Source: Catalinimonas alkaloidigena
GTDB lineage: Bacteria > Bacteroidota > Bacteroidia > Cytophagales > Flexibacteraceae
Direction of reading: 5' to 3'
NCBI RefSeq assembly: GCF_900100765.1
Contig: NZ_FNFO01000004.1
Location: 558,001 to 622,000 of the forward strand
DNA: 64,000 bases
Shown here: positions 36,547 through 58,443 of the stretch, one piece after another
Layout: every line of letters begins with the position of its first letter
How positions within the stretch are numbered: position 1 is the stretch's first letter
Notes under the pieces: model-generated
What the model saw: the letters and a program-made list of their open reading frames with translations, nothing else
Database searches by the model: none
Told to the model about the DNA's origin: nothing
Program-made: the position numbers and the translations under genes

Positions 36547-36610
36547 AGTCAACGTTAGGTTTGGTTGGTTGCTGCGCCACCCATGCCAGCTCAACGAGAC
36601 GGCGGGCGCT

Positions 36611-36662
36611 AAAAAAAAGAGCGTTGTAGCACACGGTTGGCGCTGCCGTATGGCGCCACCGT
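36611..36662 (-). terminator. stem-loop and T-run between the GH62 and GH10 genes
   Basis: Ten base pairs with one bulge (36633-36643 with 36653-36662) are followed on the minus strand, after 14 bases, by a run of eight T (ending at 36611). The gap between stem and T-run is longer than ideal, so only partial termination is likely. Confidence 0.45.
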
Positions 36663-36702
36663 TACGTACGTAAATCGGCCGTGAGGGACTTCCCCAGTCG
36701 GT

Positions 36703-37998: not shown

Positions 37999-38153
37999 GC
38001 TGTCTAAAACGTGTGTCATGCGGTGCCGTGCAGAGAGCGGTTTTAGTTAAAAATTGAGGCGACCACGCAATGCACTTCGTGACGAGCGCCAGCCAGGTGT
38101 CGGGATCATCCACAATTTCCTCAAAAAATGCTTGACGCGGGCAGTGAGGAAAG

Positions 38154-41461: not shown

Positions 41462-43198
41462 CTACCAGCCCTGGTTCTGCACCAGGGCGTCGAACTTCAG
41501 GATCTCGCTGTACGGAATGGGACCGTACTGCATGTAGTCCTGGAAGAACCGGTTCTCGACCGCGATGGTCGCATGGTTTCCACCTTCGATCCGTACGCCC
41601 TGGGCCGGTTCGGTCAGGTCGGCGTTCCACCGGCGCAGGTCCCAGAACCGGAAGCCTTCGAAGCACAACTCCAGCCGCCGCTCGTTGCGGATCAGGGTGC
41701 GCATGGCCGTCGGGTCGGCTTTGATCGATTCGAGGTAGGTATCCGGCTGGGCGATGCCGGCCCGCTGCCGCAGGGCGGCCACCACGTCGTAGGCAGAAAA
41801 TCCGTACGCTCCCATGCCCATCGGTCCCCAGGCTTCGTTGGCGGCTTCGGCGTAGGCGAGGAACAGCTCTGTGTAGCGGATGCGCGCCTTGTAGTGCCGC
41901 TGCGTGTTGGTTGTCACGGGGTTCAGGTTCACGTCCTGCCGCAGCAGTTTCCGCAGGTAGTAGCCGGTGCGGGTCGAGGTTTCCACCCGGTTGAGGGCGT
42001 CGTTGGTAGTGCCGTCGGCCGCGGTGACGATGGTCGTGTTGCTCGGCCCGGCCGTGCTGCCGTTCACCAGAATGTAGCGTTGCAGGCGCGGGTCGCGGTT
42101 GGCGTACGGCTGGGTCGGATCGTACCCGCTGGCCGGGTCAGCAATCGGGTATCCGTTGGCCATCGGAAACGCGTCCACCAAGTTTTGGGTGGGATTCAGG
42201 CGACCGCTGCCGTACAGCGTAGGCGGAAAGTGCTGCTGCTCCAGGTCGTTGCTCTCGCCCACGTCGCTGCGCCAGAGAATTTCGGGCGGATTTGTGCCGG
42301 ACGCCAGGTCGTTGATTTCCCCGGCGTTGGCGTACCAGGTCGCCCCGTTGGGGTCCATTCCCCCAACGCCTCCGATCAGGTTCAATACCTCTCCGGCATG
42401 GTGGGCGGCATCTTCCCAGGTCGTCGAGGTCCCGTTGCTGTACGCCGGGCTGGCCGCCAGCAGGGCTGCCTGGGCCCGGATGGCTTTGGCGATGCGGCCG
42501 GTCATGCGCAGGCGGGCGTAGTGCCCGAACACCCGGTTGTAGTCGTCCAGGTTGGTGTATCCGTCGGGCAGTTCGGCAGCGTCTTCAAAGTCGAGTGGTA
42601 GGAGCTGCTCCGCCTGGGCCACGTCGCTGTAGAGCTGCTGCATACAGGCCTCGAACGTGGCGCGTTCCTTGTTGAAATCGGAGTCGGTTTGTTCCGGCTC
42701 CAGCAGGATTGGCACCCCCAGCAGTTCGCCGTTCGGCCCCCAGCCGCCGTGTGCCTGCAACAGGTAGTACATGTACAGCGCGCGGAGCCCGTACGCTTCC
42801 CCCTTCAGCCGATCCCGGAACATGGCGCTCACCGCTTCGTCGGTGGCCCAGGTCACCTTGTCGGCTTCGGCCAGGAAAATGTTCATGTACTGAATGGCCG
42901 CTTTGGCGTTGGTCCACTGGCTCAGCGGGTTGTTGTTGGCAGTCCACTGCCCGGTCGCAATTTCCCGGTAGTCGTTGCTGTTGTCGTTGCTGACCGCGTC
43001 GTCGGTCGCCACGTCGTTGAACGACCAGCCGTTGGTAGGAATCCGGGTGTAGCCGTTCAGAAGAATGCCCTGCGCGTATTCGGCCTCTCCGTACATATCC
43101 TCCAGACCGCGGTTGTTTTCGATGGCCGGCGTAAAGAGATCGTCGCAACTGCTAAGGACGAAAAAGGCCGCCAGCGCGAGTAATAACGTTTTATTCAT
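41462..43198 (-). CDS. SusD/RagB family xylan-binding lipoprotein (XusD-like)
   Basis: The 578-residue lipoprotein has a lipobox VLSSC followed by DDLFTPAIENNRG. The SusD scaffold is complete, with YMYYLLQAHGGWGPNGELLGVPI as the conserved helix-loop after the TPR units, and the C-terminal ending ILKFDALVQNQGW. It is the second SusD of the locus, 24 bases after its SusC partner, and corresponds by position to xusD. It would bind xylan or xylo-oligosaccharides and close the lid of the transporter. Confidence 0.93.
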   Translation of the reverse strand: MNKTLLLALAAFFVLSSCDDLFTPAIENNRGLEDMYGEAEYAQGILLNGYTRIPTNGWSFNDVATDDAVSNDNSNDYREIATGQWTANNNPLSQWTNAKAAIQYMNIFLAEADKVTWATDEAVSAMFRDRLKGEAYGLRALYMYYLLQAHGGWGPNGELLGVPILLEPEQTDSDFNKERATFEACMQQLYSDVAQAEQLLPLDFEDAAELPDGYTNLDDYNRVFGHYARLRMTGRIAKAIRAQAALLAASPAYSNGTSTTWEDAAHHAGEVLNLIGGVGGMDPNGATWYANAGEINDLASGTNPPEILWRSDVGESNDLEQQHFPPTLYGSGRLNPTQNLVDAFPMANGYPIADPASGYDPTQPYANRDPRLQRYILVNGSTAGPSNTTIVTAADGTTNDALNRVETSTRTGYYLRKLLRQDVNLNPVTTNTQRHYKARIRYTELFLAYAEAANEAWGPMGMGAYGFSAYDVVAALRQRAGIAQPDTYLESIKADPTAMRTLIRNERRLELCFEGFRFWDLRRWNADLTEPAQGVRIEGGNHATIAVENRFFQDYMQYGPIPYSEILKFDALVQNQGW

Positions 43199-43222: not shown

Positions 43223-46200
43223 TTAGAAGAGGGCTTTCACGCCCAGGTTGTAGAAGCGGGTCTGCGGGGCGCTGCCCACGTTCAGCTCCAGCATCTCGCG
43301 TTCCGGCGCCAGGGTCAGCAGGTTGGCGCCGCTCACGTACACGCCCAGTTCGCGGAGAAATTTGTTGCCGAGCACTCCCGCCGGAAGCTGGTAGGAAAGC
43401 TGCACCTTGGCCAGGTCGAACCGGTTGGTGCTGTAGAGCCAGAAGTCGGACGCACGGAAGTTGTTGTTGCTGTTCAGCGTGGTCAGCCGCGGGTAGGTCG
43501 CGGTGGCCGCGGTGGCTTCCGTCCAGCGGTCGCGCACCACCACCGAGTATTTGTCTTCGCCGTCTACCCAGAAGTAGGCGTTGTCTTTCATGGCCTGCGC
43601 ACCGAACCGGCCCACGCCCAGCGCAAACAGGGTGAAGTTTTTCCACTTGGCGGTCAGGTGCACGCCGGTGGTCAGCGGTGCGCCGAACCAGCCACCCCGA
43701 CCCAGGTACACTTCGTCTTGGGTGTCGATCACGCCGTCGCCGTTCTGGTCTTTGTATTTGAGGTCGCCCGGTTTGACTTCGCCGAACGCCTGGGGCGTGG
43801 CATTCAGGATGTCTTCTTCATCCCGGAAAAAGCCTTCGCTTTCCAGCCCCCAGATGGCATCCAGCGGCTTACCCGCACGATTCTGGTAGGCATTTTCGTA
43901 CATTTCGGCGCGCTTGGTGGCCTTGGTCTCAAAGTACATGCCCGAGAGCCCCAACGTCCAGTCCACCTGCCCGAGGCGCCGGTTCAGGTTCACGTTGAAG
44001 TCGAACCCGATCCGCTGGTCGTCGTCGTAGTTGACGTACGGGATGAACGAAGAATTGGGCCAGCCCGTCGCGAAGTAGCTGGGATACAGCACCGAGGCCT
44101 GCACCACATTGCCTTTCAGCTTGTTGGCAAACACCGATCCGTTCAGGGTCAGCGCGCGGTTGAACAAGGACGCTTCCAGCCCCAGGTTAAGTTCTTCGCG
44201 CCGCGCAAACGTCAGGTCCGGGTTTTCGCCCCGCCGCGAGTCGGTCGAGCGGTTCAGCGCCCCGTCGCGCCAGCTGTACCAGGAGCCGTCGGTCTGTGTG
44301 TAGATGCTCTGGTAGAGGTAGTAGTCGTCGATGTCGAGGTCGGTATGCAGCACCCCGGCCGACGCGTACAACTTCAGGTGGTCGAGTGCCGCCACCGACT
44401 TCAGGAAACCTTCTTCGCTCACGAGCCAGCCCAGCGAAACCGAGGGCGAAGGCGCCATCCGGTTCCCTTTCGGCAGTTTGGCCGAATGCACCAGCGCCCC
44501 GTTGAAATCGACGAAGTACTTGTTGCGGAAATCGTAGCCCAGGTGGAGCCCCAGGTTGGCGTTGCTGGTTTTGTGGTACATCGCCGACCGGGCCTGCTGG
44601 AAGCCCGCGGCAATGAGCATGGCCGACAGGTGGTGGTCATCGCGCACGGTCGTCTGGTAGTTGAACTGCCCCGAAAAAGCCACCGTTTGCCCGTACCAGC
44701 TGCCGCTGATGTTCTGCACGCCCGACTTGGAATCCTGCCCGTACTTGGTCAAACTACTGATCTGGTCGAACCCGGCGTAGGTATTCCAGGTGGGCTGGTA
44801 GACCGCGTAGTTGTTATTGTACGATTGATTGTAGGACGTCTGGTAGTCGACGCCGAAACGCGACTGGAACGTCAGCCCTTTGAGGAGGTTGCGGAGGTTG
44901 GCGCTGATGCCCGTGTTGAACTGAAACTGACGGCTGGTGAACTTGTTGTACCCTCCGGCGTAGGTCGCCGCAAACGGGTTGGTCTGGTCCAGTTGCGTAC
45001 CGCCCAGCAGGTACTGCCCGTCGATCAGGTGGTTGCTGTTGCTGATCAGTTGTTGCGACGCCTCGTCGCTCTCTTCCACCATACTGATGGGAATCAGGGG
45101 CGCAAACCGGTACGGACGCAGGGTGGCGGCGCTGTTCCAGTAGTCGGTGTTGACGCCGCGCCCGTTGTAGTAGATGGCGGCCGCCCCGATCTCGCACGAG
45201 ATGTAGTCGTTCAGGTCGATGTCGACGTTCCCCCGGATGTTGAAACGCTGGGCGTAGTTGTTGCGCGCTTCACCGAAATTCATCAGCGAGCCTTCCGTCC
45301 AGAACCCCACGTTGGTGTAATAGCGGGCCATGGCGTTGCCTCCCGAAATTTCCATCGTGGCGTCGCTCCGGTTGTAGGTCTTCTTCAGGTACTCGGGCGA
45401 GTAATAGTTGACGTTAGGATACCGGTACGGATTGAGGCCAGCGGCATAGTTGTAGATGGTTTCGTCACTGTAGAGCGGCTCCAGCCCGTCGTTGCGGCGC
45501 GCCTCGTTGTAAAGCGTCATGTACTCGGCCGATCCCAGGTACTTCGGGTACTGCTTCGGCACGTACTGGCCGGTGTTGGCCCGCACCCGGATCTGCTGCC
45601 GGTCGTGGATTCTGCCTTTTTTGGTCGTGATGGCGATCACCCCTTTGGCACCCCGGCTGCCGTAGAGGGCCACCGCCGCTACGCCCTTCAGGAACGTGAT
45701 CTGCTCGATTTCGGTCGGCATGATGCTGCCGATTTCGCGCGGCACGCCGTCGATCAGCACCAGGTTGTCGGTCATGCCCCACAGGTTGCCGTTGAAGCCA
45801 CCTGCGTACGCTTCCAGTCCGTCGAGCGGATAGGTGATGTAGTTTTCGTCGAGGATGTCGGGCAGATTCACGACCGAGACCGCGCCGGGCAGGTGGTCGC
45901 TGTCGACCTGCCGGTAGGCCACCTGCACCAGGGCGTCGGCGGCGGTCAGGTCCACGGTCAGGTCCTCTGCCGTTGCGTCTACCTCCCGGGGCTGAAAGCC
46001 CGGCGCGCTGATGGTCAGCCGGGCACTCGGCGAAGTTTCCAGCGAAAAAGCGCCGGTCGCGTCGGTGACGGCTTCGGCGGCGTCCTGGTCACTGCGCACG
46101 ACGGCTCCTTCGACCGGCGCTCCGTCCGGGCTGCGTACCAGCCCGCTGATCGTCGTTTTTGGGGTCGTTTGCGCCCACAGTGCCTGCGGTAACAGGGCGA

Positions 46201-46243
46201 ACAGTGCAGCGACCACCAAGCTTATCGATACATAGTTTTTCAT
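43223..46243 (-). CDS. SusC/RagA family transporter without STN domain (XusC-like)
   Basis: The 1006-residue outer-membrane transporter has a signal peptide ending LWAQ and a carboxypeptidase-like domain (about 30-105; ISGLVRSPDGAPVEGAVV). The plug is divergent: the usual EVVVVGYG block is not seen, while NLVLIDGVPREIGSIMP and GVAAVALYGSRGAKGVIAITTKKG remain. The barrel ends RFYNLGVKALF. No STN domain is present, so it does not signal through a FecR; this fits control by the HTCS. The ATG at 46243 is chosen over 46285, since it begins the signal peptide directly. It is the second SusC of the tandem pairs. Confidence 0.92.
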   Translation of the reverse strand: MKNYVSISLVVAALFALLPQALWAQTTPKTTISGLVRSPDGAPVEGAVVRSDQDAAEAVTDATGAFSLETSPSARLTISAPGFQPREVDATAEDLTVDLTAADALVQVAYRQVDSDHLPGAVSVVNLPDILDENYITYPLDGLEAYAGGFNGNLWGMTDNLVLIDGVPREIGSIMPTEIEQITFLKGVAAVALYGSRGAKGVIAITTKKGRIHDRQQIRVRANTGQYVPKQYPKYLGSAEYMTLYNEARRNDGLEPLYSDETIYNYAAGLNPYRYPNVNYYSPEYLKKTYNRSDATMEISGGNAMARYYTNVGFWTEGSLMNFGEARNNYAQRFNIRGNVDIDLNDYISCEIGAAAIYYNGRGVNTDYWNSAATLRPYRFAPLIPISMVEESDEASQQLISNSNHLIDGQYLLGGTQLDQTNPFAATYAGGYNKFTSRQFQFNTGISANLRNLLKGLTFQSRFGVDYQTSYNQSYNNNYAVYQPTWNTYAGFDQISSLTKYGQDSKSGVQNISGSWYGQTVAFSGQFNYQTTVRDDHHLSAMLIAAGFQQARSAMYHKTSNANLGLHLGYDFRNKYFVDFNGALVHSAKLPKGNRMAPSPSVSLGWLVSEEGFLKSVAALDHLKLYASAGVLHTDLDIDDYYLYQSIYTQTDGSWYSWRDGALNRSTDSRRGENPDLTFARREELNLGLEASLFNRALTLNGSVFANKLKGNVVQASVLYPSYFATGWPNSSFIPYVNYDDDQRIGFDFNVNLNRRLGQVDWTLGLSGMYFETKATKRAEMYENAYQNRAGKPLDAIWGLESEGFFRDEEDILNATPQAFGEVKPGDLKYKDQNGDGVIDTQDEVYLGRGGWFGAPLTTGVHLTAKWKNFTLFALGVGRFGAQAMKDNAYFWVDGEDKYSVVVRDRWTEATAATATYPRLTTLNSNNNFRASDFWLYSTNRFDLAKVQLSYQLPAGVLGNKFLRELGVYVSGANLLTLAPEREMLELNVGSAPQTRFYNLGVKALF

Positions 46244-46278
46244 GATTGCTCTCGTCAGTGGATCGGGTTCCGCGGAGG

Positions 46279-48186
46279 CTACCAACCCGGATTTTGCTTA
46301 AATTCTGCGTAGATGTTGACGTCGTCGTTCTTGAGGGGCAGCCAGTAGTGCTTGCTGCTGAAGTTGCGCTCCAGGATGACGACCTCGCGTAAGTTGACGA
46401 CCCGGTTTTGGGTGGGGTCTTCCGCGTTGAACTCGCCGACCCGATCAAACTCGACGGACTTTTTGAGGGTATAGGGCTGGTCGATCAGCAGCATCCAGCG
46501 CCGCAGGTCGTTGAAGCGGTGCCCCTCGAACGCCAGCTCTACCGCCCGCTCCCGCCGCACTTCGCCCATAAAGGCCTCGAGCGATCCCAGAAACAGGTCG
46601 GCCACATGCCCGACACCGGCCCGGTCGCGCACGAAGTTGAGCGCGTCAACGGCCGTTTTGCCGTAGCCGGACACCTGCCCGGTCGGTGCGTTGAAGGCCT
46701 GCGCCGCCGCTTCGGCGTACATGAGGTAGACGTCGGACAGACGCATCCAGGGAATGTGGATGTTCAGGTTGTTGCCCCAGCCGTAGCCGTCGTCGTACTT
46801 GTTGGCCGTGATGGGGATAAACTTGTAGAGCAGATAGCCGGTGCGGCTGCCCGTCCCGATGTTGCGGTAGCTGCCGCCCGTGTAGAGATTCGCGTAGCGG
46901 TCCTGCGCCACGTCGGCGGGCATGGAACCCTGCACGCACTTGACGCCGTCGAACACGATGTCGTGGTAGAAACGGGGATCGCGCCCGCGCCACGGGTACT
47001 CCGGATCGTAGCCCGATTCGGCATCGGCCTGGGTGATGTCCGCGATGGGCAGCCCGTTAGCCATTCCGTAAAAATCGACGTAGTTGGCCGTCGGCAGGAA
47101 TTTCACGTCGCCGTCGGCAATGACGGGCGCAGGCTGGTACTGCTTGCTGGTGCCCCAGTTGGAACCGTTGGCTCCGTAGTACGGTCCGCGGAAAATCGCC
47201 TCCGAGCCCCCCGGAATCTGCCAGTTCTGGCCGGTGGTGTAAAAGTTCTCGTGGTAATCGTCGAACGGCAGCAGCCGGTACGGGGCGTCGCCACTTTCGC
47301 AGAGCGCCAGCAGTTCGGCAAACGCCTCGGCCGCTTTCCGGCACAGTTCCGGATCGTAGCTCCGGTTGCCGGTCGATTCCTGGTTCATCAGCGGGCTACC
47401 GGCCCAGAGGTAGTTTTTCCCCAGGTAGCCCAGCGCCATAATCTTGTTGATGCGCAGGTCGTTTTTCCCCAGCGTGTTTCGGCCCACCGCCGTGTTGTCC
47501 CAGTGGACGGGCAGCAGGTCGGCCGCCTCCCGGAAATCCTGCGCTGCGCGTTCGGCACACTCCCGGTAGCTGAGGCGCGGCAGGGTGAGCTTCTCGTCGC
47601 TCGGCAGCACGTAGTCGATGTAAGGCAGCCCCCCGAAGTACTGCATGAACTGAAAGTGAAACCACCCTCTGAAAAAGAGCAGTTGCCCTTTGATCAGGTT
47701 TTTCTGTTCGGGCGTGGCGTCGGTCAGTTTGTCGAAGTTTTCCAGCCCGATGTTCGCTTTCCGGATGCCGTACCAGCCCATGTTCCACAGGTCTTTGGTA
47801 AAGCGGTCGTCGTTCGCCGTGGCGTTCGGGTTGTCCATCCAGCCCGCGCCCCAGCCGTCGAACTGCGACTGCCAGCCCCAGAAGTTGCCGTTGTCGATTT
47901 TGACGATCAGGTGAAAATCGCGGGCGGTCGACTGGATCTCGTCGTCGCCCCAGTTCCACGAATTGGTCCAGTAGGCGTTGGTGAAGTCCGGAATGCAGTG
48001 GTACAGTTCCTCGGTATAGCCCTGGAAGTTGGTAAAGTTCTTGAACGCCTCGTCCGGCGAAATGATGGACTCGTCCGTTTTGTCCAGGTAGTCTTCGCAC
48101 GAAGCCAGGCTGAGCAGTACGCCCATCACCAAACTCCACGTCAGGAGCACGCGGGGCTTCAGCATGGTTCTTCTATCGTTTTTCAT
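46279..48186 (-). CDS. SusD/RagB family xylan-binding lipoprotein (XusB-like)
   Basis: The 635-residue lipoprotein has a lipobox SLASC followed by EDYLDKTDES, typical of SusD. The conserved segments FQFMQYFGGLPYIDYV, GYLGKNYLWAGSPL and the RRERAVELAFEGHRFNDLRRW block are all present, with the ending YAEFKQNPGW. It is the longer of the two SusD proteins of this locus and lies 11 bases after its SusC. By position it matches xusB. An internal ATG at 48165 would also leave a good signal peptide. Confidence 0.93.
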   Translation of the reverse strand: MKNDRRTMLKPRVLLTWSLVMGVLLSLASCEDYLDKTDESIISPDEAFKNFTNFQGYTEELYHCIPDFTNAYWTNSWNWGDDEIQSTARDFHLIVKIDNGNFWGWQSQFDGWGAGWMDNPNATANDDRFTKDLWNMGWYGIRKANIGLENFDKLTDATPEQKNLIKGQLLFFRGWFHFQFMQYFGGLPYIDYVLPSDEKLTLPRLSYRECAERAAQDFREAADLLPVHWDNTAVGRNTLGKNDLRINKIMALGYLGKNYLWAGSPLMNQESTGNRSYDPELCRKAAEAFAELLALCESGDAPYRLLPFDDYHENFYTTGQNWQIPGGSEAIFRGPYYGANGSNWGTSKQYQPAPVIADGDVKFLPTANYVDFYGMANGLPIADITQADAESGYDPEYPWRGRDPRFYHDIVFDGVKCVQGSMPADVAQDRYANLYTGGSYRNIGTGSRTGYLLYKFIPITANKYDDGYGWGNNLNIHIPWMRLSDVYLMYAEAAAQAFNAPTGQVSGYGKTAVDALNFVRDRAGVGHVADLFLGSLEAFMGEVRRERAVELAFEGHRFNDLRRWMLLIDQPYTLKKSVEFDRVGEFNAEDPTQNRVVNLREVVILERNFSSKHYWLPLKNDDVNIYAEFKQNPGW

Positions 48187-48197
48187 GGCAAGCGAGT

Positions 48198-51100
48198 TTA
48201 GAAAGTGAGATTAAGCCCCAGGTTGTAGCGCTTCACGGTCGGGTAGGCCCCCTGCGACGCCCACCCCGTTCCGGCGAAATTCGATTCGCGGTCGTCGGGC
48301 ATTCGGGTCCACAAAAACAGGTTGTTCCCGTTCATGAAAATCCGCAGGCTCTCAAAGCCGGCGCGGTTGACCCACGGCGCGTCGGTCCCGAAGGTGTAGG
48401 CGATTTCTGCGTTTTTGAGGCGGAGGTACGAGCCGTCGTACATGTAGCGGTTGCCGCTCGTGTAGCCGCTCGGCGTGGACAGCCAGCGCGGCATCGGCGA
48501 GTCGGCGTTGGGGTTGTCTTTGGACCAGTAGCTGCCTTCGTCGTACACCACGTGGTTTTGCGAACTCAGGCTCGTGAGCACGACCTGGCGCGTTACGTTG
48601 TTGGTGCCGTAGAACTGCACGAAGCCACTGAAGTTTTTCCACTCAAACCCGAACGTGGCGTTGTAGGTATTTTGAGGCGCACCCGAAAAGCCGAACGGAA
48701 CGTTGTCGTACGAGTCGATGATGCCGTCGGCGTTGTAGTCAATGATGAAGTAGTTGCCCGGCAGCTTCTGGTTGTCGTTGGTGTTGTGCATCGTGCTGGC
48801 GTACACCTCGTCCCAGGTATTATAGAAGCCATCGCCGACGTACGAATAAGCCTGCCCGATCTGCTTGCCTTCGGCTTTCTGATAGTCGGGCAACAGGCCG
48901 GCGTCGTCGGCGCTCAGCACCTTGTCTTTGGCGTGCGTCATGTTCAGCGTAGACCACAGGCGCAGGCCACTCCCCCACTGGTAGTTCAGGTTGACCTCCA
49001 GCTCGAAGCCCTGGTTCTGCACGCGGCCCAGGTTCGCGACGGGTGCCTGGGTGCCGTAGTACGACGGAATGGCGCGGTTGTTTCCGGCAATCAGCACGTC
49101 GGTGCGGACGTCGCGGAAAAAGTCCACGTTCCCCTTGATCAACCCGTTGAAGAGGCCGTAGTCCAACCCGAAGTTGGTTTTCTTGACCTTTTCCCAATGG
49201 ACACTCTCGTTCCCCACCGAAGCTTCGCGGTACCACGTGTACGGACTGAGCGGGGCCTGTTCGCCGTTGAGGCCCAGGCGCGCCTGCCCCACGTAGCCGT
49301 TGGGTCCTCCGTAGGCCCACTGCGTCAGGTACAGCCACCGGCCGTTGATGTTGTCATCCCCGATTTCGCCGTACGACGCCCGCAGTTTGAGGAAGTCCAG
49401 CCGCGGCACCGCTTGCAGAAACGGCTCGTTGGTCAGAATCCACCCCGCCCCGCCGGACGAGAAGAACGCAAAGCGGTTTTCTTTGCTGAATTTTTCCGAT
49501 CCGTTGTACGCGCCGTTGTACTCGAACATGTACTTGTTGGCGAATGCGTAGGTGGTGCGGAACACCCAGTCTTCCCGGTAGTTGGGAATCTCGCTGCCGG
49601 TGGCGTACTCGTTGCGGTTGAAAAGCCCCATCGCCGTGAGGTCGTGCTTGTCGCCCAGGGTGACCGCGTAGTTCATCTGCAACTGGTAGAAGAGTCGCCG
49701 GTACGAGGCGTAGTCCCGGACGGTGCCCGGCGTGGCGGTCCACTTGACGCCCTCCTGAAAATCGAAGCGGTTGTTGGCGTCGTAGCTGATTTTGTAGGTC
49801 TCCAGCCCGGTGACCGGGTCGATCCACTTTTGTTGCGTGTCGTTGTAGAGGTCGCTTACGCCGCGGTCGCCTTCCAGAAATTCGTTGTCCAGCGCCAGCG
49901 TCCCTTTGAAGTTCAGCCCCTTGGTGATCATGTCCAGGTTCTGGTCCAGCGTGAAGTTGGTGTTGAGGCGCGTGGTGGTCAGGAACTGAATCCCGCTGAT
50001 GGCCAGGCTACGCACCGAATTTTCGGCCTTGCCCTGGTTGGGCGCATAATAGCCCCAGCTTCCGTCCGAATATTGCGGCAGGAACACATCGGGGGCGTTG
50101 CTGTAGGCGGCGATCCACATGTTATACTCGTTGCCGGTAGCGCCCCACGGACTCTTCCGGACGCCGTACGAGCCGGCCAGCCCGGCGCTCAGCGTGGTGG
50201 ACGACGTGAGTTGGAAGTCGAGGTTGCTGCGCACGTTCAGGCGGTTGAATCCGTAGCCGGGCTGGTAGCCCCGGTTGTTGTCGTACTGCCGGAACAGGTC
50301 ACCCTCGCGCAGGAAGTCGGCGTTCGCGAAATACTTGACAAACTTGGTTCCGCCGTTGATGTTGAGGCTGGCGTTGTACGACATCGCGTAATCTTTGAAC
50401 AGCGTATTGGTCCAGTCGACGTTCGGGTAGCGCTCCATTTCCTCCACGCTGGCCGGATAGCGGTACTTGTCGATGATCGCCTGCGGCAGGTAGTCGTTCC
50501 AGCTTTCGGGGCGCAGGGCCAGTTCGTTCTCGATCACCTGGTTGCGGATGCGGAGCGCGTCGTAGGCGTCGTACTTGCCCGGCAGTTTCGAGGGGACTTT
50601 CATGGTGGTGTTGACCCGCGCGCGGATGGTGGCTTTCCCCGTTTTCCCTTTTTTGGTCGTGATCAGGATCACCCCGTTGGCCCCGCGGACGCCGTAAACG
50701 GCCGTTGCGGAGGCATCTTTCAGGACGGAAACCGATTCCACAGCGCTGATCTCGACGCTGGACATGGGCCGCTCCACCCCATCCACCAGAATAAGCGGCG
50801 AGGCGTTGTTCCAGGTACTACGGCCCCGGATGAAGATCTGCGGATCTTCTTCGCCCGGCATCCCCGTACTCGCGTTGGTGATGACGCCCGGCACGTTGCC
50901 GGTCAGGGCCGCGCCGATGCTCTGCACGTTGCCCGACCGTTCCAGGACTTTCCCGTCGGTTTGCGCAATGGCGGCGACCACCGTTTCGCGTTTTTGTTCG
51001 CCGTAGCCGACCACCACCACTTCTTCCAGCGACTTGACGTCGGTTTCCAGGGTGAGGTCCAGCGTGGTTTGCGTGCCCACCACCACTTCGCGGGCCATGT

Positions 51101-51464
51101 AGCCCACGGCGCTGAACACCAGCACTGATTCTTCGGAGGGAACCTCCAGGCGGTAGTTACCGTCGATGTCGGTGACGGTCCCCGTACTGGTGCCTTTGAT
51201 GATGACGTTGACGCCCGGAATGCCCTCGTCTTCGTCGGCAGAGACGACCCGCCCGGTGACCACAAAGGCCTGCGGGGCGGAAACGTCGGCCGATGGAGTA
51301 GCGGGGCGCAGGCTTTCGTAGCGGAACGTTGCGGAGTGGAGAGAGGCGGAAGGCGGGTCCTCCTGCCCGGCAGCCCGCGCGGCCGACAGCCCCAGGCACG
51401 AGAGGCTCATGCTGAGGCAGGCGTACGGGCTCCATCGTAAAAATCGCAGTAGTGCTTTTTTCAT
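48198..51464 (-). CDS. SusC/RagA family transporter without STN domain (XusA-like)
   Basis: The 1088-residue transporter has an N-terminal signal (to about residue 33), a short linker instead of an STN domain, and a carboxypeptidase-like domain (about 68-140; TGRVVSADEDEGIPGVNV). The SusC signature (EEVVVVGYGEQKRETVVAAI) and plug (SVLKDASATAVYGVRGANGVILITTKKGK) precede the 22-strand barrel, which ends YNLGLNLTF. It is the first transporter of the xylan locus and corresponds by position to xusA. It imports oligosaccharides released by the surface GH10, driven by TonB. Confidence 0.94.
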   Translation of the reverse strand: MKKALLRFLRWSPYACLSMSLSCLGLSAARAAGQEDPPSASLHSATFRYESLRPATPSADVSAPQAFVVTGRVVSADEDEGIPGVNVIIKGTSTGTVTDIDGNYRLEVPSEESVLVFSAVGYMAREVVVGTQTTLDLTLETDVKSLEEVVVVGYGEQKRETVVAAIAQTDGKVLERSGNVQSIGAALTGNVPGVITNASTGMPGEEDPQIFIRGRSTWNNASPLILVDGVERPMSSVEISAVESVSVLKDASATAVYGVRGANGVILITTKKGKTGKATIRARVNTTMKVPSKLPGKYDAYDALRIRNQVIENELALRPESWNDYLPQAIIDKYRYPASVEEMERYPNVDWTNTLFKDYAMSYNASLNINGGTKFVKYFANADFLREGDLFRQYDNNRGYQPGYGFNRLNVRSNLDFQLTSSTTLSAGLAGSYGVRKSPWGATGNEYNMWIAAYSNAPDVFLPQYSDGSWGYYAPNQGKAENSVRSLAISGIQFLTTTRLNTNFTLDQNLDMITKGLNFKGTLALDNEFLEGDRGVSDLYNDTQQKWIDPVTGLETYKISYDANNRFDFQEGVKWTATPGTVRDYASYRRLFYQLQMNYAVTLGDKHDLTAMGLFNRNEYATGSEIPNYREDWVFRTTYAFANKYMFEYNGAYNGSEKFSKENRFAFFSSGGAGWILTNEPFLQAVPRLDFLKLRASYGEIGDDNINGRWLYLTQWAYGGPNGYVGQARLGLNGEQAPLSPYTWYREASVGNESVHWEKVKKTNFGLDYGLFNGLIKGNVDFFRDVRTDVLIAGNNRAIPSYYGTQAPVANLGRVQNQGFELEVNLNYQWGSGLRLWSTLNMTHAKDKVLSADDAGLLPDYQKAEGKQIGQAYSYVGDGFYNTWDEVYASTMHNTNDNQKLPGNYFIIDYNADGIIDSYDNVPFGFSGAPQNTYNATFGFEWKNFSGFVQFYGTNNVTRQVVLTSLSSQNHVVYDEGSYWSKDNPNADSPMPRWLSTPSGYTSGNRYMYDGSYLRLKNAEIAYTFGTDAPWVNRAGFESLRIFMNGNNLFLWTRMPDDRESNFAGTGWASQGAYPTVKRYNLGLNLTF

Positions 51465-51756: not shown

Positions 51757-53481
51757 TCATTTGCGGGTAGCGTACATGGCAATGGTGGTGCCGGTAAAGC
51801 CGAACGAGTTGGCGGTCGACAGGTAGTGCGCGGGCACGTCCTTGCACAGGAGCGTCCACGCGCCCCCCTTGCCGAGGGCGTAGTAGAAGTCGTAGTCGGT
51901 GCCGCGCGACACCACTTTCAGGCGGAGGAGCGCTTCGTCGGCGAGGGTATCGCTGGCCAGCAGTTCAGGGGCGGCCTCACCGATTTTTTCCAGCGCAAGT
52001 TGCTTCTGGCCGTTCTGTTGCCGCACCGACAGGAAATACTGGTGGGTTTCGTCTTTGAACAGCAGCAACCCGGCGGCGTCGTGTGCGTCGGCCGGTTCGA
52101 AAAACAGCGTCGTCTCGCACTCAAACTGATGGTGCTGCATGCGCCGCGCCACAAACGCCGGGGTGTTCCGTTCCGAGGCACTCACGTCCGCGCAGCGCAG
52201 AGAGAGGTAGCCGGGATTTTCCGTCAGCGAATACAGCTCGGTGGCCGGTCCCCGCAGGGTGAACCACTCCTGCCCGAGCGTTGCCTCATCGAACTCGTCG
52301 GTCGCTTCGAAGTTGCCGAACGTCGTGGCCTCTTTCCGCTGCACGCCCGGCCGACGCACAACCAGCGGCACCCGTTCTTCGCCCTGCGTCAGGTACGGCG
52401 CGCCATCTTCGCTCCACCGGACCGGCATCAGGAACGTTTCCCGCCCGAGGTTTTCGAAGTTGCCGTCGAGGGGCCGACAGGCCAGAAACACCGCCCACCA
52501 GTCGCCTTCCGGGGTCTGGACCAGGTCGGCATGGCCCGCGCACGTCACCGGATTCGGACGGTCGGGACTCAGGTGGCGCTGCGTCAGGATCGGGTTCTGG
52601 TTCCAGGGAACAAAGGTGCCCATCGGGGCATCTCCCGAGAGGATCACTTCCGAATGGTCCGGCCCGGTGCCTCCTTCGGCCGCCATCAGCAGATACTGTC
52701 CGTTGATTTTATAGAGGTGCGGCCCTTCAATCCAGATGGGCTTTTCTTCCGGATGGATTCCCCCGTTCACCAGCATCTTGCGCGGCCCGAAGGTCCGGTC
52801 GGTTTCGGGATCAAATTGCTGCACGCGGATGGCGCGGTGGCCTTCATAGAGGGCGGGGCCGTCGGGTGCATCGTTGTTCACGATGTAGGCCTTGCCGTCG
52901 TCATCGAAAAAGAACGAGGGGTCGATGCCGTGCACGTCGGGTAGCCAGATCGGGTCCGACCAGGTGCCAAAGGGGTCTTTCGTCTTCACGAAGAAGTTGC
53001 CCCGCCGGATGTTGGTCGTAATCATGTAGTAGGTCTGGTTGTGCGGATTGTAGCTGATGGCCGGCGCGAAAATGCCTTCGCTGACCCGCTGCCCATCCAG
53101 CGGCAGTTGCTCGGGTCGGTCCAGCACGTGGCCGATCTGCGTCCAGTTGACCAGGTCGCGGCTGTGGAAAATCGGCACGCCGGGGTAGTACGAAAAGCTG
53201 GAGGTGACCAGAAAGTAGTCTTCGCCGTTGGTGCAAATGCTGGGGTCCGAGTTCCAGCCCGGCAGAATGGGGTTGTAAAAGTAGTCGGGACCGGGCAACG
53301 GGTGTTGCGCATAGAACTCGTCTTTCCCGGCGTAGGTAAAGCGGTCGAAATGCGCCACCGACTTTTCGGTGGGAACGTTGCTTTTGCGGCTGGCAATATC
53401 CGACCGGCACGCCCCCATCCCCCCACAAGCCAGGAGTAAAACGAGAAGACCGGAACCAGCGTGGCGTAAAAATTTCTCCAT
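51757..53481 (-). CDS. GH43 beta-xylosidase / alpha-L-arabinofuranosidase lipoprotein
   Basis: The 574-residue enzyme begins with a signal and lipobox (LLLACGGMGAC). The five-bladed GH43 domain (about 65-370) has base D79 (GWNSDPSIC), D187 (GIDPSFFFDDDG) and acid E252 (WIEGPHLY), and the segment SSFSYYPGVPIFHSRDLVNW typical of beta-xylosidases. A C-terminal beta-sandwich (about 385-570, GH43_C2-like) closes the active site. The frame is open upstream to 53652, but the ATG at 53481 alone gives a signal peptide, and a -33/-7 promoter lies right before it. It is the first structural gene after the HTCS gene. Confidence 0.9.
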   Translation of the reverse strand: MEKFLRHAGSGLLVLLLACGGMGACRSDIASRKSNVPTEKSVAHFDRFTYAGKDEFYAQHPLPGPDYFYNPILPGWNSDPSICTNGEDYFLVTSSFSYYPGVPIFHSRDLVNWTQIGHVLDRPEQLPLDGQRVSEGIFAPAISYNPHNQTYYMITTNIRRGNFFVKTKDPFGTWSDPIWLPDVHGIDPSFFFDDDGKAYIVNNDAPDGPALYEGHRAIRVQQFDPETDRTFGPRKMLVNGGIHPEEKPIWIEGPHLYKINGQYLLMAAEGGTGPDHSEVILSGDAPMGTFVPWNQNPILTQRHLSPDRPNPVTCAGHADLVQTPEGDWWAVFLACRPLDGNFENLGRETFLMPVRWSEDGAPYLTQGEERVPLVVRRPGVQRKEATTFGNFEATDEFDEATLGQEWFTLRGPATELYSLTENPGYLSLRCADVSASERNTPAFVARRMQHHQFECETTLFFEPADAHDAAGLLLFKDETHQYFLSVRQQNGQKQLALEKIGEAAPELLASDTLADEALLRLKVVSRGTDYDFYYALGKGGAWTLLCKDVPAHYLSTANSFGFTGTTIAMYATRK

Positions 53482-53502
53482 CGAGAGTTTCGCAATTGGT
53501 TG

Positions 53503-53534
53503 AAAACGTAAGCGTGCCGCCCGTTGGGCACAAA
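53503..53534 (-). promoter_or_regulatory. candidate promoter directly before the first GH43 gene
   Basis: On the minus strand, TTTG (53534-53531), a 20-base spacer and TACGTTTT (53510-53503, one mismatch to TAnnTTTG) form a plausible -33/-7 pair. A start near 53498 would leave a leader of about 17 bases before the ATG at 53481. Confidence 0.5.
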
Positions 53535-53611
53535 GTGATCGTAGGCCTAAGGCAGCGAGGCAGTGCGCCCTGAGCGACACCGGAAGGCAGGCTTCGCCCT
53601 GAGCGGAAGGT

Positions 53612-53639
53612 CCGGGGTGCAGCGGATACTGCACCCCGG
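53612..53639 (-). repeat. strong hairpin in the leader of the xylan operon
   Basis: A perfect 11-base inverted repeat (53612-53622 with 53629-53639) with a six-base loop lies 131 bases before the GH43 start. No T-run follows. A second, smaller hairpin (CCCCGC-GGT-GCGGGG) is at 53743-53757. Both would be in a long leader if transcription starts near 53990. Confidence 0.5.
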
Positions 53640-53995
53640 TCTTCACAAACAACCTATCCTATAATCGCAGTTAGAGTAATGCTATGTCTGGTGTTATGGC
53701 TGGCGTCCAGTGCCGCTTCGTAGCCTGTGCATGACCGGCCTACCCCGCGGTGCGGGGACGCCGAGCACGTCAGGTATCGTATGGAAACGGAATGTGTACT
53801 GCCGGATGAAGCGAGGTCTGGCATGGCAGCAATTTCTTCCGGCGGGAGGTCGCTTCGACAGAGTAAGAAGCGACGGTGTGTAGCGTGAGCATGGTGGTAA
53901 CGTGGGTGTCGTGTAAGGTCGTTGTCGTACGGTACGGAAGGCTGTTGTTGTTCGAAGCGTTGTCGAACTAAGGGTTCCTCCGCGCACCGTGGAAA

Positions 53996-54103
53996 CAAAT
54001 CTAGTGCGCTTGATCAGAAGGTCCGCATCGGCAGGTTACACGCTCTTACACACAGGTAACATGCGGACGCTGCGACGTTACATATCGTTACACTGAGGTT
54101 ACA
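53996..54103 (-). promoter_or_regulatory. candidate HTCS-activated promoter with phased TGTAAC repeats
   Basis: A perfect -7 element TAGATTTG (54003-53996) has no TTG partner at -33. Upstream of it, in the minus orientation, TGTAAC occurs ending at 54035, 54077, 54087 and 54098, and TGTAAG at 54045. The offsets from the first copy (0, 10, 42, 52, 63) are close to multiples of 10.5 bases, so all copies lie on one face of the helix. This arrangement fits binding by an AraC-type activator, most likely the HTCS encoded just upstream. Confidence 0.5.
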
Positions 54104-54348
54104 TACCCCCGTTTGGCGCGCAGAAACGCACTTTTTGCTGTAACCCTACTGGATGAGGAAGCGTCTGCACGTTGACGCCATTTGAGTCGGCTGTCGCTGT
54201 GCTACCCCAAAAACGAGAGGCTCCTTGGCAGCACCGGAGTTGAATCCAGTACGCCCGAAGAGCCCTTAAAAAATACTTGATTCGGATGGTGCTGCGCGAT
54301 TCAGAAAAGAAAGCTTCCGGACGTTGGCGGCGCACAGCAACCGCACCG

Positions 54349-57300
54349 CTACAAACGCGTGACGTTGGGAGCGCTGGCTTCCGAGTCCAGGTGCGTCTCC
54401 CGGTAGTGGGTGGGCGACATGCCGTACAAGTCTTTGAAGGCGTTGGAAAAATAAGCGGGATTGGTGAAGCCTACGGCAAAGGCCACCTCCGATACGTTCA
54501 GCGGCTTGGAAGCGAGCAGCGTGGCGGCCTGTTGCAGCCGGATGTTGCGCATCAAATCACTGGTCGACTGGTTGGTCAGTTCCTTCAATTTGCGGTGCAG
54601 GTGGACCCGGCTGATGCCGATCTGGCTCGCGATCATCTCCACGCTCAGCGCAGGATTGGCCAGTTGCTCGTTCATGATGTCCATGAACTTCTTCAGCAGC
54701 TTTTCGTCGGCCGACTTCAGTTCCACCTTGTGCACTTTGTCCTTCTGCTGTTGGTTGCCGCTGAAACTGTTGCGCAACAGCGCCCGGTTCTGAATCAGGT
54801 TCTGCACCGTCACTTTCAGCATGTCCAGGTTGAAAGGCTTCACCAGGTAAGCGTCCGCACCGATGCCCAGCCCTTCGAGGTTGTCTTCTTCTTCGGAGCG
54901 GGCCGTCAGCAGCACGACCGGTGCGTGGTTGATGTTGACGTTCTGTTTGATTTTGCGGCAGAGCGTAATGCCATCCATCTCCGGCATCATCACGTCGCTG
55001 ATGATCAGGTCGGGGCGTTTGCTCAGCGCCAGCGTCAGGGCTTCGCGGCCGTTGGCACTTTCCAGCACGGTATAGTCGGTGGCGAGTTCGCGGCAGAGGT
55101 AGCGGCGTATTTCGGCATCGTCGTCGACGACCAGTACGCGTCGCTTTGTGGTTGCCTTACCCTTGGTCGACCCAGCCGACGGGCCGAACGGAGCCACGAC
55201 CGGCACGAGGGGTTGCGGTTTCGGTCGGGCGGAGGGGCGATTTTCCCGTTCTGCGCTCGACAGGTGCTCGCTGCCCAGCGGCAGCTTGATCCGAAAGCGA
55301 CACCCCTGCCCGTCGGCGTTGTTTTCGGCCTGAATGGTGCCGTGGTGCAGTTGCACGAGCGAGCGCGTCAGGTGCAGCCCGATGCCGGTTCCGGGTTGGG
55401 CCGAAGACGCCGGGCCCTGGTAGAAACATTCGAAAACGGTTTCCAGCGCGTGCTCGGGAATGCCCGGACCGCTGTCGGACACCACAATTTCCACGTAGCG
55501 CCGGAAGCCCGTGCCGGGTTGGGTGTCTTCGCCGGTCGAAAGCGCCACCGCGACCGTGCCACGCTCCGGCGTAAACTTGAAGGCGTTGGCCAGTACGTTG
55601 ATCATCACCTTGTCGAAATGATCGGGGTCTACCCACACCGGCACTTCCTCGACGGCAGGCAGAAAGGTGAAACGCAGGTGATGCGACTGCGCCTGCTCTT
55701 CGAACAGCGCACAGATGTCGCGCAGGTACTGCACCATCTCTCTCTCCTGAAAGCGGAGTTGCATCTGCCCCTTGTCGATTTTCCGGACGTCCATCAGTTG
55801 GTTGATCAGCCGCAGAATGCGCTCGGAATTGCGGTGCATGGTGTCGTAATCCTGCCGCCGCTCGCGGTCGTCGTCGGCCGTCATCAGCTTTTTGAGCGGA
55901 CTGATGATCAGCGACATGGGCGTGCGGATCTCGTGGGCGATGTTGATGAAAAACTGCAGCTTCGCTTCGTTGATCTGCTTGGCGTGCAGGTGTTCGCGCA
56001 TTTTTTGCCGGGTGCGTTGCCGCTGCCGTACCTGTTGCACCACCAGCAGGGCAATCAGGAACAGCAGTGCGCCGTAGCCCACGTTGGCCCAGGTGGAAAA
56101 ATACCACGGCGGGGCGATGACAATCTGGATTTCTTTCGGCGCCGAGTAGGTGGTGTAGTCTTTGGCCTTCACCCGGAAGCGATACGTGCCGGGGGCCAGG
56201 TTGGTAAACGTCACGTTGTCGGTGCCGGGCCGCAGCGCCACCCAGTCGCCGTCGTCCATGGCGTAGAGGTAGGTAATGCGCTCGGGGTTGTAAAATTCCA
56301 GCGCGGAAAATTCGAGGGTAAAGGCGTTGTCTTTGTGCGACAGGTGAAACGTTTCCGCGTTCATCACCGACGTGTTGATGATTTCCCGGTTGCCCGAGCG
56401 GCTGCCTTTGTGAATGGGCTGGTCGTGCAGGTAGAAGCCCGCGATGCGCACATGCAGTTCTTTGGCCTGGTCGATGATCTCGTCCGGATAGAAGTAGGTG
56501 ATGCCGTTGAGTCCGCCGAATACGAGCTGCCCTTCCGGCCCCATGAAGGCCGCCCCCAGGCTGAATTCGTTGCCCTGCACGCCATCCTGCGCGTAATAGT
56601 TGATGAACTGGCGTTCGCGGAGCGAGAATTTGGAGATGCCGTGGTTGGTGCCCATCCACAGGTTACCGGCCGGATCGCCGACGAGCGATTTGATCACGTC
56701 GCTGGGCAGTCCGTCGTCCTGGGTATAGACTGACAGTTGATGCGTATCCCGATCGATGTACGCCAGGCCCTCTTCGGTGCCCATCCAGATCGTGCCCTGG
56801 GCATCTTCGTGAAACGCGTAAACAATGTGGCCGGACAGCAGGCGGTTGGTCCCGTAGGTGGACGTAAAGCTCTGGGTAGCCAGGTCCAGACACCCGAAGC
56901 CGTCGAACGTCCCGATGTATAGTTTTTCGTCGGGCGTCAGCAGCAGCGTGTTGATCCAGCTGTTGTGCAGCACGTTCGTTTCGGGGCGGTACTGTTCGCC
57001 GCTTACGGCCTCGTACTGTGTGACCTTTTCCGTCGTCAGGTTCATGCAGAAAAGCCCCGCGCCCATCGTGCCGATCCAGAGGTTTTTCCGGGCATCTTCC
57101 ACCAGGTGAAAAATGCGGGGCGGCTGCAGCGCGTGGCTGAGCCGGTCGTTGACGTACGTGCACACGCCCGTTTCGCGGTTCAGTTTCGCCAGCCCATTCT
57201 GGTACGATCCCAGCCAGAGCGTCCGGTCAGAATCTTCGAAGATGCACATGATGGTGGCAGGCACGGCATGGGCCTGTGACGAGGGGGCAAAATGCGCCTT

Positions 57301-58443
57301 CACTTTCCCGTCCGGAGCGATGCCGTACAGCCCGTCGCCGTCGGTGCCGACCCACAACGTGCCCGCGTGATCTTTGTAGACCGACATGACGTTGCTCGAC
57401 CCGATGAGGTTGCGGCTGACCGATTTGTAGCCGATGTAGCGGAAGTTGTTCGTCATGGCCGGAAGCAGCATCACGCCTTTCTGGTAAATGCCGATCCAGA
57501 GGTTGCCGGCCTGGTCTTCCAGCACGGTGCTGACCTTCGTCTTGGTGAAATCGAACGTTGAAACGTGAAACGCCTCGTCGCTGATTTTTTGCTGCCCAAC
57601 GTCGTACACCTTCAGGCCTTCGCCCTCGGTGCCCAGGTACAGGTGGCCTTCGCGGCCCAGGTACAGGGTGTTGATCGGCAGGCGGGTATTCGTCGGGGCC
57701 GCAACGGGGCGGAACTGATCGGCGTCCGGCGCATACGCGTAGAGTCCGTTCAGGGTGCCGGCATAGACGGTTCCGGCCCGGTCCTGGCAAATGCTGGAGA
57801 GGGTATGGCGGAGGTGCTCCTGCTGGCGGAAGTACGTGTCGACGTGGCCGTTCGGGCGGAGGCAGGTCAGGCCGTTGTCTTGCGTGGCGACCCACAGGTT
57901 TTGCGCCTGGTCTTCGAACAGGTCACGAATCAGCATGCTCCCGACCGGCAACCGAAGCTGCCGCCCCACCCACCGGTCCTGTTCCTGTTTAAGGGAAAAA
58001 ATGCCGTGTCCGGACGTAGCGATCAGGACTTCGCCGTTGCGTCGTTCCAGCATGGCGGTGACGTGCGCCTTGTAATCCGCCCCACCTTCCAGCAGCAGCG
58101 GAACGCGGCGGAACGTGTCGGTTGCGCAGTCGTACTGTTGCAAGCCGTTATAGAACCCAATGAAGAAGTTTCCCCGGCTGTCTTCAAACAGCATGTGCAC
58201 TTGGTTGTGCGACAGCGAGGTGGTATCGCCGATGCGGTGCTTGTAGAGGGTGAACTTGGCGCCGTCGTAGCGGTTCAGACCGTCTTCCGTGGCAATCCAG
58301 ATGATGCGGTTGTGGTCCTGGTGAATGTCCCGGACCAGGCTGTTGGAAAGCTCCTGATCGGCCGAGAAGAGTTTGCCCGGTTGTGCAAACCCGGTCAAGG
58401 ACCATCCCAGCAGAAAAATCGTCAGTACGTAGCGGTGTATCAC
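54349..58443 (-). CDS. hybrid two-component system (HTCS) sensor/regulator of the xylan locus
   Basis: The 1364-residue inner-membrane regulator joins sensor, kinase and activator in one chain. After a signal peptide (MIHRYVLTIFLLGWSLTGFAQ), a periplasmic two-bladed propeller sensor runs to about 690, then the Y_Y_Y domain (about 700-770). One transmembrane segment (about 780-798) follows. The kinase has its phosphorylated H837 (NIAHEIRTP) and an ATP-binding site (NAFKFTPERG; DSGPGIP). A receiver domain has D1150 (LIISDVMMPEMDG). The C terminus is an AraC-type double helix-turn-helix (about 1265-1355; ISRVHLHRKLKEL, VAFAVGFTNPAYFSNAFKDLYG). It should sense a xylo-oligosaccharide and activate the genes downstream. 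Translation starts at a GTG. Confidence 0.95.
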   Translation of the reverse strand: MIHRYVLTIFLLGWSLTGFAQPGKLFSADQELSNSLVRDIHQDHNRIIWIATEDGLNRYDGAKFTLYKHRIGDTTSLSHNQVHMLFEDSRGNFFIGFYNGLQQYDCATDTFRRVPLLLEGGADYKAHVTAMLERRNGEVLIATSGHGIFSLKQEQDRWVGRQLRLPVGSMLIRDLFEDQAQNLWVATQDNGLTCLRPNGHVDTYFRQQEHLRHTLSSICQDRAGTVYAGTLNGLYAYAPDADQFRPVAAPTNTRLPINTLYLGREGHLYLGTEGEGLKVYDVGQQKISDEAFHVSTFDFTKTKVSTVLEDQAGNLWIGIYQKGVMLLPAMTNNFRYIGYKSVSRNLIGSSNVMSVYKDHAGTLWVGTDGDGLYGIAPDGKVKAHFAPSSQAHAVPATIMCIFEDSDRTLWLGSYQNGLAKLNRETGVCTYVNDRLSHALQPPRIFHLVEDARKNLWIGTMGAGLFCMNLTTEKVTQYEAVSGEQYRPETNVLHNSWINTLLLTPDEKLYIGTFDGFGCLDLATQSFTSTYGTNRLLSGHIVYAFHEDAQGTIWMGTEEGLAYIDRDTHQLSVYTQDDGLPSDVIKSLVGDPAGNLWMGTNHGISKFSLRERQFINYYAQDGVQGNEFSLGAAFMGPEGQLVFGGLNGITYFYPDEIIDQAKELHVRIAGFYLHDQPIHKGSRSGNREIINTSVMNAETFHLSHKDNAFTLEFSALEFYNPERITYLYAMDDGDWVALRPGTDNVTFTNLAPGTYRFRVKAKDYTTYSAPKEIQIVIAPPWYFSTWANVGYGALLFLIALLVVQQVRQRQRTRQKMREHLHAKQINEAKLQFFINIAHEIRTPMSLIISPLKKLMTADDDRERRQDYDTMHRNSERILRLINQLMDVRKIDKGQMQLRFQEREMVQYLRDICALFEEQAQSHHLRFTFLPAVEEVPVWVDPDHFDKVMINVLANAFKFTPERGTVAVALSTGEDTQPGTGFRRYVEIVVSDSGPGIPEHALETVFECFYQGPASSAQPGTGIGLHLTRSLVQLHHGTIQAENNADGQGCRFRIKLPLGSEHLSSAERENRPSARPKPQPLVPVVAPFGPSAGSTKGKATTKRRVLVVDDDAEIRRYLCRELATDYTVLESANGREALTLALSKRPDLIISDVMMPEMDGITLCRKIKQNVNINHAPVVLLTARSEEEDNLEGLGIGADAYLVKPFNLDMLKVTVQNLIQNRALLRNSFSGNQQQKDKVHKVELKSADEKLLKKFMDIMNEQLANPALSVEMIASQIGISRVHLHRKLKELTNQSTSDLMRNIRLQQAATLLASKPLNVSEVAFAVGFTNPAYFSNAFKDLYGMSPTHYRETHLDSEASAPNVTRL

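Follow-up and report, generated by a model that had tools for sequence, protein, structure and literature searches.

A 21-bp direct-repeat array at a fixed distance from a -7 element as a candidate operator of a xylan-locus HTCS

HTCSs are a main class of glycan switches in Bacteroidota. In the stretch of DNA analyzed here (64,000 nt, hereafter the window, to which all positions refer unless another genome or locus is named), an HTCS gene adjoins a xylan-utilization operon, and the interval between them holds an array of short repeats followed by a promoter-like element. This raises the question of whether the array is the operator through which the HTCS controls the operon. The initial annotation had placed the repeats between the HTCS gene and the operon predicted to be under its control, and the domain content of the neighborhood agrees with that arrangement, with the HTCS on one side and xus-type genes on the other. 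The HTCS gene is upstream of the array, and a GH43-SusC-SusD-SusC-SusD run continues downstream on the same strand:

54349..58443, minus strand: HTCS gene (propeller sensor, Y_Y_Y, HisKA, HATPase, receiver and AraC-type HTH)
51757..53652, minus strand: GH43 with GH43_C2, first operon gene
48198..51464, minus strand: SusC-like (xusA-like)
46279..48186, minus strand: SusD-like (xusB-like)
43223..46285, minus strand: SusC-like (xusC-like)
41462..43198, minus strand: SusD-like (xusD-like)
40388..41413, minus strand: DUF5627 / BT_3987-like protein (xusE-like)
38217..40361, minus strand: GH10 with CBM4_9 (xyn10C-like)
28600..38019, minus strand: GH62, GH10, GH95, SASA esterase and GH43, putative continuation of the operon

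Two SusC/SusD pairs, a xusE-like gene and a GH10 xylanase characterize the locus as xus-type, following the core definition as quoted in a passage of PMC3747994. The true start of the GH43 gene is likely at 53481; the longer, TTG-started frame has a lipoprotein-like signal from residue 58. The SASA protein also carries a GH2-type domain, and a GH95 gene is common to the xylan loci of the window (32420-34969) and of Bacteroides xylanisolvens (L149:7356-9791). Beyond the HTCS, on the opposite strand, 59592-61564 encodes an AraC-family regulator (59592-60491) and then an aldo/keto reductase.

The repeats had first been described as (G/C)TTACA copies at 54035, 54045, 54077, 54087 and 54098 of the plus strand, with a further TGTAAC at 54139-54144, and all of these coordinates are correct. 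Read on the minus strand, TGTWAC boxes start at 54103, 54082, 54061 and 54040, forming an exact 21-bp lattice of four boxes, of which the TGTTAC at 54061 had been overlooked in an otherwise real set of copies. The copy at 54139, described as inverted, is present, but the minus strand reads GGTTAC from 54145, in register with the lattice; the lattice position at 54124, between this GGTTAC and box 1, has no box. Two further boxes start at 54092 and 54050 (minus strand), between lattice positions. The elements are as follows:

54140..54145, minus strand: degenerate lattice box GGTTAC, 42 bp upstream of box 1
54098..54103, minus strand: lattice box 1, TGTAAC, most upstream
54087..54092, minus strand: middle box TGTAAC within unit 1, putatively a weaker second half-site
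54077..54082, minus strand: lattice box 2, TGTAAC
54056..54061, minus strand: lattice box 3, TGTTAC (plus strand GTAACA), the overlooked copy
54045..54050, minus strand: middle box TGTAAG within unit 3, putatively a weaker second half-site
54035..54040, minus strand: lattice box 4, TGTAAC, proximal, 31 bp before the -7 element
53996..54003, minus strand: -7 element TAGATTTG (plus strand CAAATCTA), without a -33 element

The claim of a perfect -7 element lacking a -33 TTG holds: CAAATCTA occupies 53996-54003, and no TTG occurs in the 31 bp between it and the proximal box. Promoters of the Bacteroidota primary sigma factor have TAnnTTTG at -7 and TTTG at about -33, a consensus quoted for B. fragilis promoters in a passage of PMC7366714; the window promoter has the former and lacks the latter, as expected where an activator replaces the -33 contact. 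The 868-bp stretch that separates the HTCS stop codon from the likely start of GH43 contains a single TANNTTTG, and transcription would begin a few bases after TAGATTTG. From this proposed start site to the likely GH43 start codon there would be a leader of ~500 nt (53481-53995, minus strand). A known leader RNA was considered and rejected: positions 53300-54400 gave no Rfam match. No exact TGTWAC pair lies upstream of the HTCS gene in the window.

Could such an array arise by chance or by neutral tandem duplication? STTACA is under-represented in the window (19 found vs 32 expected), yet six of the 19 fall within 110 bases. When this 868-bp stretch was shuffled 20,000 times by dinucleotides, a TGTWAC pair at 21-bp spacing turned up four times, whereas neither a three-box lattice nor a TGTWAC pair 31-32 bp before TANNTTTG appeared in any. 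The array is the sole site of 21-bp TGTWAC pairs in the 64-kb window and, across the 7.1-Mb genome, the sole match both to the triple-box pattern and to the pair plus -7 pattern. Two similar 27-bp blocks lie 42 bp apart in the array, and duplication may account for part of it. The geometry nevertheless reappears in other families and orders, where the spacers are unrelated, and together with the three-box shuffle result this makes an accidental or neutral origin of the whole barely credible. We rejected chance origin on the basis of the shuffles and the conservation described below.

Conservation was assessed by searching the HTCS DNA-binding domain against 291 genomes of the same order (Cytophagales), with at most 13 candidates scored per genome. 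Among the matches listed, nine had DNA-binding domains 55-67% identical to that of the window; the next by E-value had 46%, and the highest other identity was 48% over 111 residues. All nine are full-length HTCS orthologs (45-58% identity over the whole protein), the one in genome G285 being identical to the HTCS of Fulvivirga sediminis (L114). In the nine loci, window excluded, TGTWAC pairs were spaced by 21 bp in 20 cases, by 42 bp in seven and by 63 bp in two, with every other spacing (7-69) seen at most once; both strands were counted, so one place may count twice where pairs are palindromic. Twenty control loci of other HTCSs (391 kb) yielded one pair, with a spacing of 29. Including the window's own genome, an exact TGTWAC-N15-TGTWAC pair lay within about 20 kb of the HTCS in 10/10 genomes; for L073, L075 and L076 it was absent from the first piece examined and found in the adjoining piece (L106, L092 and L094, respectively). 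Repeats are thus conserved at orthologous loci, the check on which the initial annotation had staked its operator reading.

The same loci bear on the phasing of the repeats. Offsets close to multiples of 10.5 bases had been proposed; the coordinates and offsets are real, but the unit conserved among the loci is 21 bp long, and spacings of 10 or 11 are not enriched in the orthologs. A strict 10.5-bp arrangement, in which all boxes are equivalent TGTAAC sites of a single protein, would account for the resemblance of the middle boxes at 54092 and 54050 to the lattice boxes. We consider it very unlikely, as spacing 21 alone is enriched at ortholog loci and what is conserved at positions 13-16 of the unit is a weaker motif with another sequence. 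The 10.5-bp conserved unit was accordingly rejected in favor of a 21-bp unit.

For the distance to the promoter, we scanned the 291 genomes for TGTWAC pairs with TANNTTTG required 26-38 bp downstream, using the reversed pattern as control, and obtained 34 matches in 27 genomes vs 13 reversed-pattern matches; within the ten ortholog genomes the counts were 13 and 0. Ten of these 13 matches were within 18 kb of the HTCS, and in all ten the gap was 31 or 32 bp. In two ortholog genomes (G252 and G285) pairs are present close to the HTCS, but none there is followed by an exact -7 element at the gap.

Beyond the order, a scan of genome contigs gave 80 named HTCS homologs, identity being that of the best segment. 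In the 15 loci with at least 44% identity, 19 pairs had spacing 21, where other spacings averaged 0.23; the corresponding figures were 15 and 0.56 in the 21 loci with 34-42%, and four and 0.79 in the other 44 (27-33%, one 37%); L114, the same HTCS as L077, is counted in this tally and in the tree described below. A search for full sites in the genomes of 16 hand-picked homologs among the 80 found 20 sites in 12 genomes vs two reversed-pattern matches, with a gap of 31/32 in 19 and 29 in one. The next frame after these 20 sites was SusC-like (8), an enzyme or carbohydrate-binding protein (7: GH67, GH97, GH3, CBM4_9, GH10, GH5 and glucuronyl esterase), an HTCS (1), an AraC regulator (1) or unassigned (3). 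Some Prevotella homologs carry the sites. At four Dyadobacter-type loci (L079, L080, L117 and L165) a site is also located upstream of the HTCS gene itself, with GGTAAC as the first box in three of them; an exact -7 element at gap 32 precedes the HTCS frame in L079 (minus, 14147), L117:9796, L165:9787 and L080 (minus, 14098), in a survey of those sites whose -7 element is exact or nearly so. From this placement, the HTCS is therefore probably autoregulated in Dyadobacter-type loci.

A tree of 110 HTCS proteins contained one supported set of 40 (SH-aLRT 99, quick method), and TGTWAC pairs were present in the locus DNA of 20 members of this clade vs 3/70 other proteins; the remaining 20 clade members had no exact pair in the locus DNA examined. 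At 17 clade loci without an exact site, degenerate pairs (≤2 mismatches) before TANNTTTG showed a gap of 31/32 in 9/13 cases, with 25 gaps tried. The first recognition helix reads SRVH in 39/39 clade members compared (the 40 minus L114).

An independent test is offered by B. xylanisolvens XB1A, in which genetic data exist. According to passages of PMC4855328, an insertion in the HTCS gene BXY_29350 of PUL43 repressed the PUL43 genes as well as BXY_46590-46620 of rPUL70 (GH67, GH10, transporter and GH2), not the susC-like BXY_46550, and the GH13 gene BXY_46630 was not over-expressed on xylan. BXY_29350 and the window HTCS are 47% identical in their best segment. The TGTWAC pair pattern occurs at ten places in the XB1A genome (17 rows) vs seven rows for the reversed pattern; five of the ten are in two xylan loci, and the other five, elsewhere, are at about the reversed-pattern level. 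The xylan-locus places are:

XB1A 3626245: pair before the HTCS, no exact -7 element at the gap
XB1A 3588609: before GH43; TGTAAC, TGTAAC, TGTAGC and TGTAGC at 21-bp steps, then TATTTTTG at gap 32
XB1A 3590397: before GH3; pair, then TATTTTTG at gap 31
XB1A 3593360: before the next gene; the lattice position two steps past the pair shows no recognizable box, and TACATTTG follows it at gap 31
XB1A 5691184-5691232: before the SASA-transporter-GH10-GH67 operon; three exact boxes and TGAATC, then TAAGTTTG at gap 31

An exact TAnnTTTG thus stands 31 or 32 bp from a lattice position at four of the five places, in a search that allowed two gaps at nine lattice positions for six sites, in both directions before the HTCS. 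In one case the distance of 31 is from the pair itself, and in three it is reached via one or two further lattice units; these further units are degenerate, two with one mismatch, one with two and two with at least four. The SASA-transporter-GH10-GH67 order corresponds to BXY_46620-46590, with BXY_46630 beyond, as matched by gene order and Pfam content, and a GH13 gene flanks the other side of the 5691184-5691232 array. BXY_46620 is listed as GH2 in the gene descriptions of PMC4855328 vs a SASA match here, and the SASA protein of the window carries a GH2-type domain as well. One GH31 gene of the region is absent from the PUL43 families given in that text. The position of this array before genes matching the HTCS-dependent set of rPUL70 suggests a direct link between PUL43 and rPUL70.

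These data also speak to the sign of regulation. The HTCS might repress the operon while xylan is absent and be released on signal, as in the model that a section of PMC7815789 presents for the B. intestinalis EGE PUL, and the array is compatible with either state of a putatively bound HTCS. Mutation of the homolog BXY_29350, however, decreases target expression (as described in PMC4855328), the promoters lack a -33 element and have their boxes at a fixed distance upstream of the -7 element rather than overlapping it, and HTCS receiver domains block DNA binding until phosphorylation, according to passages of PMC11253607. We regard repression as highly improbable and activation as the preferred reading.

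Sites also occur away from the window-type HTCS. Of the pair plus -7 matches in the Cytophagales scan, 24 were away from the ortholog (21 in non-ortholog genomes and three elsewhere in ortholog genomes), with a gap of 31/32 in 17 and of 29, 30 or 33 in seven; another HTCS lay within 1.5 kb in 8/23 loci examined. Because 17 of the 24 share the 31/32 gap and eight of the 23 loci are beside other HTCSs, the box is not exclusive to the window-type HTCS. The eight loci (L189, L190, L192, L193, L194, L196, L211 and L214) have TGTWAC pairs beside other HTCSs at gap 31/32, most of them TGTTACA, a GTG-like half-site being present in some, and 6/7 compared HTCSs beside TGTTAC-type promoters have SRMQ as the first recognition helix. 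Judged by these sequences, the eight loci likely represent a second class of HTCS operator.

A different regulator that accompanies xylan loci, such as the AraC-family protein (59592-60491) or a catabolite regulator, might instead bind the boxes, with the HTCS acting elsewhere. The AraC gene is indeed close to the locus in the window, TGTWAC pairs with the same gap exist away from the window-type HTCS, and one site in the genomes of the named homologs is upstream of an AraC gene. We nonetheless judge this unlikely: the sites track the HTCS lineage across several orders, precede the HTCS gene itself in Dyadobacter-type loci and mark HTCS-dependent genes in B. xylanisolvens, and their 21-bp period is the one already predicted for HTCSs in the text of PMC3878776. 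Direct repeats of ~21 bp, gene context and ortholog conservation all fit an HTCS operator of the 21-bp direct-repeat kind. The array is very probably the operator and promoter of the xylan-utilization operon, and its predicted binder is the adjacent HTCS. The initial operator reading is in this respect supported by the repeats kept at orthologous loci, their 21-bp spacing and the 31/32-bp gap to TAnnTTTG.

How might the HTCS read such an array? We aligned 32 full sites, exclusively with gaps of 31 or 32 bp, so that the gap cannot be assessed from the alignment itself. Outside the search pattern, A at -1, A6, T7, A13, A27 and T28 were conserved, positions 14-16 after A13 were purine-rich, and no -33 motif was conserved at that distance. 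Position 6 of the window boxes is C or G, the usual base being A. The middle boxes of the window, offset by 10/11 bp, coincide with the weaker second half-site at about positions 13-16 of the unit. We hypothesize that one AraC-type DNA-binding domain would occupy each ~21-bp unit, one helix-turn-helix (probably the first) contacting ATGTWACAT and the other contacting the weaker half-site about 12-16 bp into the unit, where the middle boxes of the window fall. Phosphorylated HTCS would occupy two or more units arranged head to tail along one DNA face. If TAnnTTTG is set at -7, the proximal box would fall at about -45, and the remainder of its unit would cover -33. The HTCS would in this way replace the missing -33 contact and recruit RNA polymerase with the primary sigma factor; its tandem DNA-binding domains probably substitute for that contact, which would account for the constant 31/32-bp gap. 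What the sequences show directly is the repeats, their spacing, the gap, the conservation with the HTCS lineage and the agreement with the regulon of a published mutant; from these we infer direct binding, the assignment of helices to half-sites, contact-mediated activation, the start site and how many domains bind the four lattice boxes of the window.

It is tempting to extend this geometry to HTCSs at large. We hold only tentatively, and with somewhat more doubt than confidence, that 21-bp repeats, a 31-32 gap and the lack of a -33 element constitute a general rule for HTCS-activated promoters across Bacteroidota, and that the box could be predicted from the first recognition helix, SRVH pairing with ATGTAACAT and SRMQ with TGTTACA plus a GTG-like half-site. 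The basis is the 31/32 gap in 17 of the 24 matches away from the ortholog, the other HTCSs beside eight of 23 such loci, and the SRVH and SRMQ counts given above. Counting against the helix-box rule is L036, a paralogous HTCS of the window's genome (C2:403001-423000) that has the SRVH helix and no TGTWAC pair in its 20 kb. A sequence-blind scan for self-repeats before TAnnTTTG at 113 other HTCS loci showed no enrichment at 21: with 7-mers there were 18 at spacing 21, 18 at 48 and 17 at 33, and with 14-bp windows four promoters at 21 and up to seven at other spacings. The same scan was weak for the orthologs too (nine promoters at 21, seven at 42 and six at 18), so it argues neither for nor against a general rule. 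If the rule were true, HTCS regulons could be read from sequence.

The array provides a concrete candidate operator for a xylan HTCS, with a fixed promoter distance, that is testable in B. xylanisolvens or a Dyadobacter strain, and its pattern could be used to find xylan regulons in unannotated genomes. In class II AraC-family promoters a site of two parts is repeated in direct orientation, and its proximal copy extends to the -35/-33 region. The window differs from these in its Bacteroidota TAnnTTTG promoter without a -33 element and in its one-piece membrane sensor-regulator. HTCS binding sites had been described as poorly known, which overlooks the 16 B. thetaiotaomicron HTCS motifs predicted by Ravcheev et al. 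2013, in which the repeats are direct and on average 21 bp apart (main text of PMC3878776); the ground is not wholly new. XynR of Prevotella bryantii (Miyazaki et al. 2003) is an HTCS required for xylan gene induction, as summarized in a passage of the review PMC8002723; its likeness to the window HTCS as a xylan-inducing HTCS is by description, the sequences compared being those of other Prevotella homologs. BXY_29350 of PUL43 is an HTCS homolog with a xus-type core, as in the window, and with TGTWAC pairs at both loci; its positive control of PUL43 and part of rPUL70 was established by mutation, and the passages of PMC4855328 on this gene give no operator. Part of PMC11253607 describes an inhibitory contact between receiver and DNA-binding domain in HTCSs, using two promoters with predicted sites, and a 2021 study of an arabinoxylan locus (PMC7815789) states in one passage that HTCS-bound DNA is 'yet to be determined'. 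This operator, its spread and the fixed -7 gap were not found in the literature searched (few subscription papers, no supplements), and the excerpts of PMC12596196, PMC11501099, PMC12125979 and PMC10766802 contain nothing on this operator. Closest are the operators of Ravcheev et al., which the passages of PMC3878776 describe, like that of the window, as direct repeats of ~21 bp near susC/susD for an AraC-type domain, with two monomers on one DNA face as in our proposal; the comparison is by description rather than by logos, and no xylan-locus HTCS is named in the set as given there. Beyond that description, the present analysis gives the box sequence, its spread over several orders, four-unit arrays and the fixed 31/32-bp gap. 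Operators made of 21-bp direct repeats are already a known kind; what is newer is their constant spacing from the -7 element.
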